From Larus michahellis (Eukaryota > Chordata > Aves > Charadriiformes > Laridae): a stretch of DNA of 64,000 nucleotides. Below, piece after piece: positions 4,914 to 16,085 of this stretch (positions within the stretch are counted from its first letter, which is position 1; each line of letters begins with the position of its first letter). Under the pieces are notes generated by a model. The model searched no databases. It had not been told where the DNA came from and saw only the letters and a program-made list of their open reading frames with translations. The stretch spans positions 84,056,215 through 84,120,214 of the forward strand of contig NC_133896.1 of NCBI RefSeq assembly GCF_964199755.1, given 5' to 3'. The position numbers were made by a program, and so were the translations under genes.

Positions 4914-6237
4914 GCGGGTAAGAAGGAAGACCCAGGGAACTACAGGCTGGTCACACTTACCTTGATCTGTAGGGAAGTGATGGAACAACTCATCCTGGAA
5001 ACTATTTCCAGGCACAGGAAGGACAGGAAGGTGACCAAGTATAGTCTGCATGGAATTCACCAAGGGGATGCCATGCTTGACTTCGTGAAATGACTAGGTT
5101 GGTAGATGAGGGGAGAGCAGTGGATATTGCCTACCTAGACTTCAGCAAGGCTTTTGATGCTGTCTTCCATAACATTCTCACCGAGAAGCTGATGGAGTGG
5201 TCCAGATAAGTAGACAGTGAGATGGACTGAGACCTGGATGAATGGCTGGGCCCAGAGGGTGGTGATCAGTGGCATGAAGTCTAGTTGGAGGCCAGTAACA
5301 AGCAGTAAATGGGTCCAATCCTGTTCAACATCTTCCTAATGATCTGGATGGTGGGGCAGAGTGCAGCAAGCTTGCAGCGAGCTTGCAGATGACACAAAAC
5401 TAGGAGGAGCGGCTGATATACCAGGGGGTTGTGCTGCCATCCAGAGTAACCTTGACAGGCTGGAGTAATGGGCTGACAGGAACCTTCTGAATTTCAGTAA
5501 GGAGAAGTGCAAAGTCCTGTACCTGGGGAGGAACAACCACATGCACCAGTATATGCTGGGGACTGACTGGCTGGAAAGCAGCTTGGCAGAAAAGGACCTG
5601 GCAGACACCAGGCTAAACATGAGCCAACAGTGTACTTCTGTAGCAAAGGCGGCTAAAAGTATCCTGAGCTGCATTAGGAGGAGCATTGCCAGCAGGTCAA
5701 GGGAGGTGATCCTTTCCCTTTGTTCAGCGCTGGTGAGGCCACACCTGGAGTATTGTCTTCAGTTATGGGTGCCCGGTACAAGAAAGACATGGACATGCTG
5801 GATAGAGTCCAATGAAGGGCCATGGAGATGAGGAAGGGACTGGAGTGTCTCTCCTGTGAAGAAAAGCTGTGAGAACTGGGACTCTTGAGAAGAGAGGTCT
5901 CAGAGGGATCTTATCAACTATCTGATAGGATGGGGTAAAGGAGATAGAACCAGGCTCTTTTCAGTGGTGCCCAGTGACAGGACTAGAGGCCATGGGCACA
6001 AACTGAAACACACGAAGTTCCCCCTGAACATCAGGAAAAAGTTTTACTTTTACTGTGAGGGTGACTAAGCACTGGCACAGGTTCCCGAGGGAGGTTGTGG
6101 AGTCTCCATCCTTGCAAATATTCAAAAGCTGTCTGGACGTGGTCCTGGGCAACTGTCTGTAGGTGGCCCTGATTGAGCAGGGGGCTTGGACCAGATGCCC
6201 TTCAGAGGTCCCTGCCAAATTCAGCTATTCTGTGATT
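4914..6237 (+). mobile_element. Degenerate CR1 LINE, 3' portion of ORF2 plus 3' end
   Basis: The piece begins with the CR1 block encoding KKEDPGNYR and a degraded SLT segment. It passes through a recognisable YLDFSKAFDAV block (about 5130-5165) and a damaged ADD catalytic box (about 5385-5400). It then shows the LEYC segment and the C-terminal [13 protein letters not shown] region, and ends in a CR1 3' terminus with a single ATTCTGTG unit near 6225-6235. Its length is close to the matching part of the intact copy, so indels are small. Frames are broken repeatedly: an in-frame TAG follows the DRLE-like block, and a local duplication lies just before the ADD box. It is a dead copy, clearly older than the 12.8-16.1 kb element. 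Confidence 0.9.
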
Positions 6238-12784: not shown

Positions 12785-12805
12785 CATAGAATCATAGAAT
12801 CATAG
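12785..12805 (-). repeat. CR1 3'-terminal octamer repeats
   Basis: On the plus strand there are two full CATAGAAT units plus a partial one. Read in element orientation this is the ATTCTATG repeat that ends CR1 elements and is thought to take part in target-primed reverse transcription. Confidence 0.93.
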
Positions 12806-12843
12806 GGTTGGAAGGGACCTCTGGAGATCATCTAGTCCAACCC

Positions 12844-12859
12844 CCCTGCCAGAGCAGGG
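12844..12859 (-). other. CR1 3'-UTR hairpin
   Basis: CCCTGC and GCAGGG form a perfect 6-bp stem around a 4-base loop, about 40 bases from the element terminus and just after the ORF2 stop. Conserved 3' stem-loops are recognised by the reverse transcriptase in this LINE group. That role here is inferred from position. Confidence 0.65.
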
Positions 12860-12863
12860 TCAC

Positions 12864-15788
12864 CTAGAGCAGGTTACACAGGAACATGTCCAGGTGGGTT
12901 TTGAATGTCTCCAGAGACGGAGACTCCACCACCTCTCTGGGCAGCCTGTTCCAGTGCTCTGCCACCCTCAGAGTAAAGAAGTTCCTCCTCATGTTTAGGT
13001 GGAACTTCCTATGCTCAAGTTTGTGCCCATTGCCTCTTGTCCTGTCCCCGGGCACCACTGAAAAGAGCCTGGCCCCATCCTCCTGACACCCACCCTTTAA
13101 GTATTTATAAGTGTTGATAAGGTCACCCCTCAGACGTCTTTTTTCCAGACTGAAGAGACCCAAATCCCTCAGCCTTTCCTCATAAGAGAGGTGTTCCAGT
13201 CCCCTAATCATCTTTGTAGCCCTCTGCTGCACCCTTTCCAGCAGTTCCCTGTCCCTCTTGAACTGGGGAGCCCAGAACTGGACACAGTACTCCAGGTGCG
13301 GCCTCACCAAGGCAGAGTAGAGGGGGAGGATGACCTCCCTCGACCTGCTGGCCACACTCTTCTTGATGCACCCCAGGATGCCATTGGCCTTCTTGGCCAC
13401 AAGGGCACATTGCTGGGTCATGGTCATCCTGCTGCCCACCAGGACTCCCAGGTCTCTTTCCACAGAGCTGCTCTCCAGCAGGTCAGCACCCAACCTGTAC
13501 TGGTGCATGGGGTTGTTCCTCCCCAGGTGCAGCACCCTACACTTGCCCTTGTTGAACTTCATAAGGTTTCTCTCTGCCCAGATCTCCAACCTGTCCAGGT
13601 CTCTCTGTATGGCAGCACAGCCTTCCGGTGTGTCAGCCACCCCACCCAGCCTGGTGTCATCAGCAAACTTGCTGAGGGTGCACTTTATCCCCTCATCCAG
13701 GTCATTGATGAATATATTGAAGAGGACTGGACCCAGTACTGACCCCTGGGGAACACCACTCGTCACTGGTCTCCAACTAGACTCTGTGCCCCTAATCACA
13801 ACCCTCTGAGCTCTATCTTTCAACCAGTTTTCTATCCACCCCACTGTCCATTCATCTAACCCACACTTCCTAAGCTTCCCTATGAGGATGCTGTGGGAGA
13901 CCATGTCAAACGCCTTGCTTAAGTCAAGGTAGACCACATCTACCGCCCTCCCCTCATCTATCCGTCTAGGCATGCCATCGTAGAAGGCTATCAGATTAGT
14001 CAGACATGATTTCCCCTTGGTGAATCCATGCTGAGTACTTCTGATAGCTTTCCTTTCCTCCACGTGCCTTGAGATGACACCCAGAACGAGCTGTTCCATC
14101 ATCTTTCTAGGGATGGAGGTGAGGCTGACCGGCCTGTAGTTCCCCGGCTCCTCCTTCTTGCCTTTCTTGAAGACTGGAGTGACATTGGCTTTCCTCCAGT
14201 CCCCAGGCACCTCGCCTGTTCTCCAGGACTTTTCAAAGATGATGGAGAGCGGCCCAGCAATGACTTCTGCCAGCTCCCTCAGCACTCTCGGGTGCATCCC
14301 ATCAGGGCCCATGGACTTGTGAATATCTAGATGATCTAATTGGTCCCTCACTCGCTCCTCCTCAACCCAAGGGAAGTCGTCTTCTTTCCCTGTTACTTTA
14401 TTCAATGCCTGGGACTCCTGAGGGCTGGGCCGAGCAGAAAAGACCGAAGCAAAGAAGGCATTCAGTAACTCTGCCTTCTCCACATCCTCCGTCACCATGA
14501 CTCCTGCCTCATTCAGCAGTGGGCCTACAACTTCTCTGGTCTTCCTTTTGCTTCCAGTATACTTGTAGAAGCTCTTTTTGTTGTGCTTGATGTCCCTAGC
14601 CAGGTCTAATTCCAAGGCGGCCTTGGCTTTCCTTGTTTCATCCCTGCACGCTCTGGTGGCATTCTTGTAATCCTCCCAAGGGGACAGTCCCTTCTTCCAC
14701 TTTTTATAAACTTCCTTCTTCCACTTGAGCTTTTTCTGAAGCTCCCTGCTCAACCATGCAGGTCTCCTGCGTCCCTTGGCCGATTTCTTTCTCTTAGGGA
14801 TGCACCGATCCTGAGCTTGGAGGAAGTGGTCTTTGAATATCAACCAGCTTTCTTGAGCCCCTTTGCCTTCCAGAGCCCTAGCCCACGGGATCTCTCCAAG
14901 CAGTTTCTTGAAGAGGTCGAAGTTAGCCCTCCTGAAATCCAAGGTTGTAATTTTACTTCTTGTTGTTGTTTTGTGGATAGTACCCATGATCCTGAACTCA
15001 ATCATTTCATGATCACTACAACCTAGGGTGCCCCCAACCTTAATGTCCTCCACCAATCCCTCTGTGTTTGTCAGTACCAGGTCTAGAAGTGCTCCTCTCC
15101 TTGTTGGCTCCTGTACCACCTGTGTCAAAAAGTTGTCATCAATGCACTGGAGGAGCCTCCTGGACTGTGCATGCCTGGCTGTGTGGTCTTCCCAGCAGAT
15201 ATCGGGGTGATTGAAGTCCCCCATGAGAACCAGGGCCTGCGCTTGCGAGGCTACCTTCAGTTGTCTGTAGAAAGCCTCATCAGTCTCCCCATCCTGATCA
15301 GGTGGCCTGTAATAAACACCCACAACAGTGTCCCTCATATTTGCCTGTCCCTTAATCCTCACCCATAAGCTCTCGACCCGCTCTTCATCCGCCCCTAGTG
15401 AGAGCTCAATGCATTCCAAATGCTCTCTCACATAGAGTGCAATTCCACCACCACGCCTTGCTGGTCTGTCTTTCCTGAAAAGGACATAGCCATCCATGAC
15501 AGCATTCCAGTCATGCGAGTTGTCCCACCACGTCTCAGTAATTGCAATGAGATCATGGCCCCGCAACCGCACACAGACCTCCAGCTCTTCCTGCTTATTC
15601 CCCATGCTGCGTGCATTGGTGTATAAGCATTTCAGAGAGGGAGTTGTGTGTGTAGTTTTGACCCTTGAGATGTGGTGTGCCTTCTGGCTTTCAGAAATAC
15701 TGGCACACTGGCCCACGAGCGCTGAGCAACTACACCCTGGCACCTCACCAGCAAGCCCAGTACCATCCCCACCCCCCTTCAAATCTAG
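12864..15788 (-). CDS. CR1 ORF2 protein: endonuclease and reverse transcriptase
   Basis: This is the replication protein of a CR1 LINE: it nicks target DNA and reverse-transcribes the element RNA. Residues are counted from TTG at 15782. The AP-like endonuclease has Asn57 in TNARS, Glu83 in TETWW, GDFN at 188-191, and the SDH triad end at 256-258. The reverse transcriptase has DLSKAFD at 620-626, [11 protein letters not shown] at 675-685 and the FADD catalytic box at 706-709. A C-terminal region follows with HLEYC and a basic, Arg-rich segment. About 972 residues is full length for CR1, and no key residue is missing. There is no ATG before residue 60. The frame is closed upstream by TGA at 15801-15803, so I begin the coding span at the first -1-frame codon after a slippery heptamer (15788). 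A non-AUG start is the alternative. Many overlapping plus-strand frames are shadows of it. Confidence 0.93.
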
Positions 15789-16085
15789 TTTAAAGCCCTC
15801 TCAATGAGCCCCCATAACTCTTGTCCTAGAACCCTTTTTCCCCTAGAGGTCAAGGTATTCCTGCCTGTTACCAGCAGGCCAGGCGTTTTGTAGATCAGGC
15901 CATGATCAAAGAACCCAAAGTCCTGCCGGCAGCACCAGGCTCGAAGCCAGGCATTGATCTGCTGGCTCCTTCTATTTAGCCCTTCATCATTCCCCGCAAC
16001 TGGGGGAATAGACGAGAACACAACTTGTGCTCCTGATCCCTTGACCAGGTGTCCCAGGGTCTTGAAATCTTTCTGGTCTGTTTTA
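15785..16085 (-). CDS. CR1 ORF1 protein, C-terminal part (esterase-like domain), 5'-truncated
   Basis: The segment reads KDFKTLGHL, then [28 protein letters not shown] and a C-terminus SRGKRVLG...ERALN ending at TAG (15785-15787). This is the C-terminal half of the esterase (GDSL/SGNH-hydrolase-like) domain found in ORF1 of many CR1 elements. The N-terminal part with the nucleophile Ser block and the RNA-binding region is missing through 5' truncation. Where CR1 esterases usually have a D-x-x-H catalytic pair just before the RGK segment, this copy reads [10 protein letters not shown], so the pair seems lost or altered. The last codons TTA AAC TAG form the frameshift-like junction with ORF2. 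Confidence 0.8.
15788..15794 (-). promoter_or_regulatory. Candidate -1 ribosomal frameshift site (TTTAAAC) at ORF1/ORF2 junction
   Basis: In the ORF1 frame the codons are GCT TTA AAC TAG, so T TTA AAC is an in-phase X XXY YYZ heptamer directly before the ORF1 stop. Slipping back one base continues as CTA GAT TTG AAG into ORF2. The -1 frame is closed by TGA at 15803-15801 and the 0 frame by TAG at 15787-15785, so any switch must happen within 13 nt (15800-15788), where the heptamer sits. A G-rich run (six G, T, four G) begins 10 nt downstream and could act as a stimulator. A weak 6-bp stem (TGGTAC with GTGCCA) lies further on. Frameshifting itself is inferred. Confidence 0.6.

Follow-up and report, generated by a model that had tools for sequence, protein, structure and literature searches.

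A candidate -1 ribosomal frameshift site, T TTA AAC, at the ORF1/ORF2 junction of CR1 retrotransposons in Larus michahellis

A CR1 copy with overlapping reading frames

Our starting point was a stretch of 64,000 nucleotides from the genome of Larus michahellis (NCBI RefSeq assembly GCF_964199755.1, contig NC_133896.1, positions 84,056,215 to 84,120,214), here called the window. On its minus strand lies a 5'-truncated copy of a CR1 retrotransposon, in which the end of open reading frame 1 (ORF1) meets the start of ORF2 (Table 1). ORF1 ends GCT TTA AAC TAG and shares 13 nucleotides with ORF2, which lies in the -1 frame. An earlier note on this DNA had proposed that ribosomes shift frame here, at the heptamer T TTA AAC. 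Its account of the ORF1 end, with the heptamer in phase, and of an ORF2 frame closed by a TGA just upstream, is correct for the window copy. It had also placed the first ATG of ORF2 after the endonuclease Asn. That order stands, but the residue numbers given were about five off, since the Asn is residue 62 and the first Met residue 66.

ORF2 matches RVT_1 (3.7e-31) and Exo_endo_phos (3.8e-13), and its stop codon is at 12866-12864, minus strand. The relatives of this protein, with an apurinic/apyrimidinic (AP)-type endonuclease and a reverse transcriptase, are long interspersed nuclear element (LINE) proteins of birds and turtles. We take them to be CR1 elements; their records name only reverse transcriptase. 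CR1 elements are marked by short ATTCTATG-type 3' repeats and by frequent 5' truncation. The window copy fits both hallmarks, with two 3' ATTCTATG units and a truncation at 16074. As for the C-terminal esterase of CR1 ORF1, the ORF1 piece gives Lipase_GDSL_2 at an E value of only 0.052, below the cut-off, and PF13472 is carried by some homologous ORF1 proteins. The ORF2 Asn is presumably catalytic, as in AP-endonuclease-like LINE enzymes. The profile match of the endonuclease piece to L1 ORF2 starts only after the Asn; a phmmer comparison of the piece with solved structures gave no match. Note that the window holds a second, older CR1 copy (4917-6218, plus strand), about 71% identical, which consists of the 3' part and is without the ORF1/ORF2 junction.

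Table 1. Parts of the CR1 copy in the window and the basis on which each was assigned.
Feature	Position	Strand	Basis
CR1 copy, 5'-truncated	12785..16074	-	98.4% identity over 16074-12792 to full-length sister L119
Two ATTCTATG units, 3' end of CR1 copy	12800-12785	-	sequence
ORF1 C-terminal part (putatively esterase-like), terminus A-L-N-stop	15785..16074	-	sequence, sister copies, homologous ORF1 proteins
Slippery heptamer T TTA AAC, in ORF1 phase	15788..15794	-	sequence and genome junction counts
ORF1 stop TAG, abutting the heptamer	15785..15787	-	sequence and genome junction counts
TGA closing the ORF2 frame, two codons upstream of the heptamer	15801..15803	-	sequence and genome junction counts
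G-rich stretch GAAGGGGGGTGGGGA, +14 to +28, candidate non-structured stimulator	15766..15780	-	conservation
ORF2 linker without ATG, -1 frame open from heptamer to endonuclease	15636..15794	-	linker reading and signs of selection
ORF2, -1 frame, 978 codons stop to stop, endonuclease and reverse transcriptase	12864..15800	-	domain search
Endonuclease Asn codon, residue 62 of the stop-to-stop frame	15615..15617	-	invariant in 12/12 aligned ORF2 proteins
First in-frame ATG of ORF2, downstream of the endonuclease Asn	15603..15605	-	sequence

The junction is conserved across CR1 subfamilies of the genome

Junctions were read from the whole 1.4 Gb genome in two samples. The first comprises 118 loci. 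For 110 of these, out of 150 places listed, the query was an ORF1 protein cut before the heptamer, to avoid selecting loci by the heptamer. The other 8, out of 40, came from a junction DNA query that spans it. TTTAAAC is exact at 113 of the 118 junctions, and the ten-letter junction sequence TTTAAACTAG at 107. The upstream TGA is present at 117, a slightly favoured count, since the motif used to phase 40 of the loci includes this TGA. In the first 58 loci, the heptamer sits where extrapolation of ORF1 predicts. The second sample used an ORF2 protein query and comprises 24 of 150 listed places (L122-L145). A junction is held by 19 of these, with TTTAAAC in 17; four of the remaining places match no junction query and one (L138) starts inside the junction, after the heptamer. 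With both samples together, the heptamer is exact at 130 of 137 junctions, and each of the seven misses is a single-base difference. Note that the counts are not fully independent, because several loci lie in arrays.

Across the 118 loci, the majority-base fraction is 0.850 at -60 to -10, 0.994 in the heptamer and 0.879 at +10 to +29. Conservation stays high up to +29 and declines beyond. Heptamer, phase, -1 relation and stop are kept in every subfamily read in this genome; the conservation beyond background that the earlier note had asked for is found. The 13-nucleotide overlap is not general. In subfamilies G and H (L122-L137), where the TGA is absent from its usual place, and in L142, the ORF2 frame of most copies is open well upstream of the heptamer and the overlap exceeds 13 nucleotides.

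The earlier note had also judged a chance fit to be unlikely, and we agree. Given A-L-N, and the codon usage of ten ORF1 copies, the probability of the codons GCT TTA AAC is 0.010. Among 279 other Leu codons, just 25 are TTA, and TTTAAAC occurs once per copy on the coding strand in each of two full-length copies. Another slippery heptamer in the correct phase lies 48 nucleotides upstream. We discounted it, since a slip there would lead straight to the TGA that closes the ORF2 frame.

Logically, such conservation could stem from a function of the ORF1 C-terminus (RALN) and from shared descent, the slippery appearance being incidental. ORF1 parts are indeed well conserved in DNA, and of the 98 four-codon runs, one is frozen slightly more than A-L-N-stop, which ranks second. 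However, when 14 subfamily representatives are compared, pairs with the same amino acid also share the codon in 314 of 327 cases (96%) at A-L-N-stop, against 4007 of 5997 (67%) in the rest of the last 100 ORF1 codons. The scarcity of TTA among other Leu codons speaks the same way. Furthermore, a role for the C-terminus leaves the open -1 frame, and expression of an ORF2 that lacks an AUG, unexplained. We regard this explanation as highly unlikely. Judged by these comparisons, the junction is conserved at the nucleotide level beyond coding need.

A young family without an early ATG

Of 1198 candidate places in the genome for a 361-base junction query, 40 were scored, and each of these is 99-100% identical. 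By this measure, the window copy is a member of a young CR1 family. Two of three full-length sisters combine an ORF1 of 374 amino acids with a -1 frame that, counted from the heptamer, is open for 976 codons and has its first ATG at codon 63. In the third sister, ORF2 is broken. Therefore, the family includes copies with full coding capacity but no AUG from which a complete endonuclease could be started. Copies of the family stand at short spacing on small contigs (C366, C305, C192 and C479), as if in tandem arrays. Many CR1 places among the listed ORF1- and ORF2-query matches lie on one contig of 26.9 Mb (C38).

ATG codons were surveyed in the linkers between heptamer and endonuclease at 78 loci, with 65 linkers open and 13 broken. 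Since the labels A and E were swapped for many copies, the two are pooled here as the window clade, which forms one clade (100/99 support) in a tree of 19 copies. In this clade, 30 of 30 open linkers are without ATG before the endonuclease Asn. Hence, the missing ATG is not the loss of a start codon in a single copy. The earlier note had allowed for such a loss, which would make the window copy a dead element, no longer translated. While the copy is 5'-truncated, as a dead copy might be, the 30 linkers and the two sisters with both ORFs open contradict this at the level of the family, and we give it next to no credence.

The linker itself has several features of a translated sequence. Lengths of 54, 62, 76, 88 and 112 codons all keep the frame and differ by whole codons. 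Between linker codon 8 and the endonuclease, the -1 frame is stop-free in 14 pairs of intact representatives, while other frames have 1-10 stops per linker; the first 22 codons are stop-free in the -1 frame in 12 representatives. In the -1 frame, the ratio of nonsynonymous to synonymous substitution rates (dN/dS) is 0.22 and 0.25 between two branches of the window clade, and 0.32 within one branch. Amino acid changes are below random in the first 28 linker codons of the clade (P 0.014, 0.038) and in the whole linker (P 0.008, 0.016). Among seven sequences of the clade, 20 of 21 pairs fall below the random mean of amino acid changes. We conclude that the linker is probably translated but weakly constrained.

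A chimeric subfamily provides a natural control

Subfamily D' has two junctions. One is its own, at the ORF1 end, and the other is a relic of another subfamily's junction, inside the ORF2 linker. In the 12 copies read (L039, L047, L048, L060, L068, L070, L071, L075, L086, L087, L088 and L115), the live junction is TTTAAACTAG in 12/12. The relic is TTTAAGC, with no TAG following, in 12/12, and TTTAAACTAG in none of the 12. The parent-like subfamily G has kept TTTAAACTAG in 11 of 12 copies compared. The contrast between live and relic junctions runs in the direction that function at the ORF1 end would predict. D' looks chimeric: one CR1 subfamily seems to have supplied ORF1 and linker, and a second one the junction and ORF2 fused to them in frame.

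ORF1 and ORF2 proteins of other species

Other species were compared at the protein level. Of 147 ORF1 proteins (27 from one search and 120 listed of 162 from another), 94 have a Leu-Asn C-terminus. They come from many birds, from the turtles Pelodiscus, Macrochelys, Chrysemys and Pelusios, and from a snake, Erythrolamprus. Among the 53 others, P0143, P0144 and P0160 have A-L-N but continue past the stop. Five end in other residues, namely KALK, CSLS, TASN and, twice, RALR (P0137, P0220, P0222, P0233 and P0256). The remaining 45, taken as a group, end earlier or diverge before the terminus. A-L-N is invariant in 17 ORF1 proteins, 34-58% identical to the first; these were chosen for that ending, so the figure describes divergence elsewhere and is not an unbiased rate.

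The -1 reading SFKLD(S/L)K is present in 19 of 120 ORF2 models listed, all from one stork, Mycteria americana (P0002, P0005, P0013 and others). These models enter the linker at one point, as SFKLDSK or SFKLDLK. Such a shared entry point would suit a spliced RNA, in which an upstream exon bearing an AUG is joined to ORF2 at the AG just upstream of the heptamer, and AG does occur at -5/-4 in 11 of 13 representatives. However, the AG belongs to an Arg codon of ORF1 and is preceded by no clear pyrimidine tract. The stork models are gene predictions with varied upstream parts, joined just before the heptamer; these joins are probably annotation artefacts. In addition, a spliced RNA could not act as full-length template. 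Splicing is, in our judgement, very improbable.

Evidence against frameshifting, and the possibility of a separate ORF2 start

Several observations weigh against frameshifting. The first concerns RNA structure. A stem-loop or pseudoknot 3' of the heptamer is usual, though not universal, at programmed -1 frameshift sites. Nested folding and a simple H-type scan found no conserved downstream stem-loop or pseudoknot, and downstream of the junction there was no G-quadruplex gain and no H-type pseudoknot above shuffles. Mean folding z scores downstream are +0.46, +0.22 and -0.20, against -1.05, -0.78, +0.15 and -0.98 in four control windows in ORF2, which are, if anything, the more structured. The alifold energy of the downstream region is -1.3 kcal/mol. 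The earlier note had drawn attention to a run of six G, T and four G. The run does start 10 nucleotides past the heptamer in the window copy, but folding and pseudoknot scans lend it no conserved structure. If the slip is stimulated at all, the candidates would be the stop next to the heptamer, the G-rich stretch and a factor.

Other points on this side concern the evidence itself. Since collections of viral and of bacterial and archaeal contigs, searched for related junctions or proteins, gave none, the nucleotide evidence comes from one genome. The relic control in D' is one lineage. ORF2 protein models of duck and turtle begin 15 and 24 residues before the YTNA motif. In the linker survey, 13 of 78 are closed in the -1 frame, as one would expect where copies have decayed. 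The second half of the ATG-less linker has no significant deficit of amino acid changes (P 0.20, 0.14), and only 7 of the 21 window-clade pairs, which are not independent, reach P<0.05. Over linker codons 3-22 of 12 representatives, the -1 frame has a ratio of nonsynonymous to synonymous differences (pN/pS) of only 0.72, where the other frames gave 0.83 and 0.79, and within family B dN/dS is about 1, from 8 changes. Protein-level selection on the linker, by these measures, is modest.

Finally, early ATGs do occur outside the window clade. A Met precedes the Asn in 11/12 open linkers of B, 4/4 of C, 11/11 of D and 8/8 of D'. D and D' carry an in-frame ATG 2 nucleotides past the ORF1 stop; at linker codon 22, an ATG occurs in all four of these subfamilies. 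The earlier note had counted an ATG near the equivalent of position 15782 as evidence against its proposal, and D and D' have one. The absence of an early ATG across subfamilies therefore stands for the window clade and fails for B, C, D and D'. What this contradicts is an AUG that is always missing, not the case of the window clade.

These ATGs raise the possibility that ORF2 is started separately, by reinitiation at the nearby AUG where there is one and, for the ATG-less clade, at a near-cognate codon instead. CTG at the residue preceding the endonuclease KC, found in 54 of 65 open linkers, would be a candidate for the latter. A precedent may be SART1, which reportedly couples its ORFs at a UAAUG stop-start. 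Against this, the clade in which all 30 open linkers lack ATG belongs to a young, expanded family with a conserved endonuclease. By inspection, a purine at -3 and G at +4 do not occur together around any near-cognate codon that the A and E linkers share, and the CTG is replaced by GTC in all 8 D' linkers. Nor would separate initiation account for a frame that is stop-free before codon 22 in the 12 representatives, or for a heptamer frozen at synonymous sites. Overall, we consider separate initiation unlikely. A calicivirus-like reinitiation motif was set aside: the TGGGA required by such a motif is not constant in the aligned junction columns.

Discussion

Taken together, we consider it likely that CR1 uses programmed -1 ribosomal frameshifting at T TTA AAC, before TAG, and that the ORF2 enzyme is made as an ORF1-ORF2 fusion. 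The argument is comparative, and draws on the site and its phase, on the stop that abuts it, on an open -1 frame, on conservation and, in the window clade, on the lack of an AUG before the endonuclease Asn. For the fusion proposed by the earlier note, conservation of heptamer, phase, -1 frame and stop thus gives comparative support; universal absence of an AUG has to be given up.

In such a mechanism, most ribosomes would terminate ORF1 at UAG. A minority would slip at U UUA AAC and continue in the -1 frame into ORF2, the tRNAs of UUA and AAC re-pairing on UUU and AAA while the A site holds UAG. The product would be the endonuclease-reverse transcriptase, fused to ORF1. A slow UAG, and perhaps the conserved G-rich stretch, may promote the slip in place of a pseudoknot. 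Low slip efficiency would then result in a low ratio of ORF2 to ORF1 protein. A broader proposal is that CR1, one of the major LINE lineages in birds and other reptiles, generally uses a retrovirus-style -1 frameshift at UUUAAAC-UAG. This ten-nucleotide signal would predate the split of turtles, birds and snakes, and would be driven by the abutting stop with no pseudoknot, the AUGs of some subfamilies being dispensable extras. We would lean neither towards nor away from this wider claim.

How LINE ORF2 protein is synthesized at a low level is a long-standing question. To our knowledge, the answers at hand are AUG-independent initiation, in L1, and stop-start reinitiation, in SART1. Like CR1, SART1 has a tight coupling of ORF1 and ORF2. 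It is said to depend, however, on reinitiation at an AUG, and none is in place in the window CR1 clade. Frameshifting at TTTAAAC is already known from viruses; for the CR1 junction we found no description in the open-access literature, a scope outside which the early CR1 papers lie, so that an earlier remark is possible.

The closest parallel is with coronaviruses such as infectious bronchitis virus (IBV). Their site has the same heptamer in the same phase, with a -1 shift into a polymerase frame, and one review lists U_UUA_AAC among the shiftiest heptamers (PMC5009743). The CR1 junction differs in that UAG abuts the heptamer and no conserved structure was found. Coronavirus U_UUA_AAC sites have a pseudoknot 3' of the heptamer. 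Among retrotransposons, the same review says that gag of Drosophila HeT-A needs a frameshift, and describes polyprotein production by TART as unknown (PMC5009743). Both resemble CR1 in being elements without long terminal repeats (non-LTR), but the HeT-A shift concerns Gag, and neither case is a CR1 ORF1-ORF2 junction. Human L1 is alike in that ORF2 is made with no need of its own AUG; there, however, the ORFs are a few nucleotides apart, and the review favours novel initiation over a slip (PMC5009743). If our interpretation of CR1 is right, the real N-terminus of its ORF2 protein would be the ORF1 fusion, and, by a gag-pol-like frameshift, LINE elements and retroviruses would share one solution.

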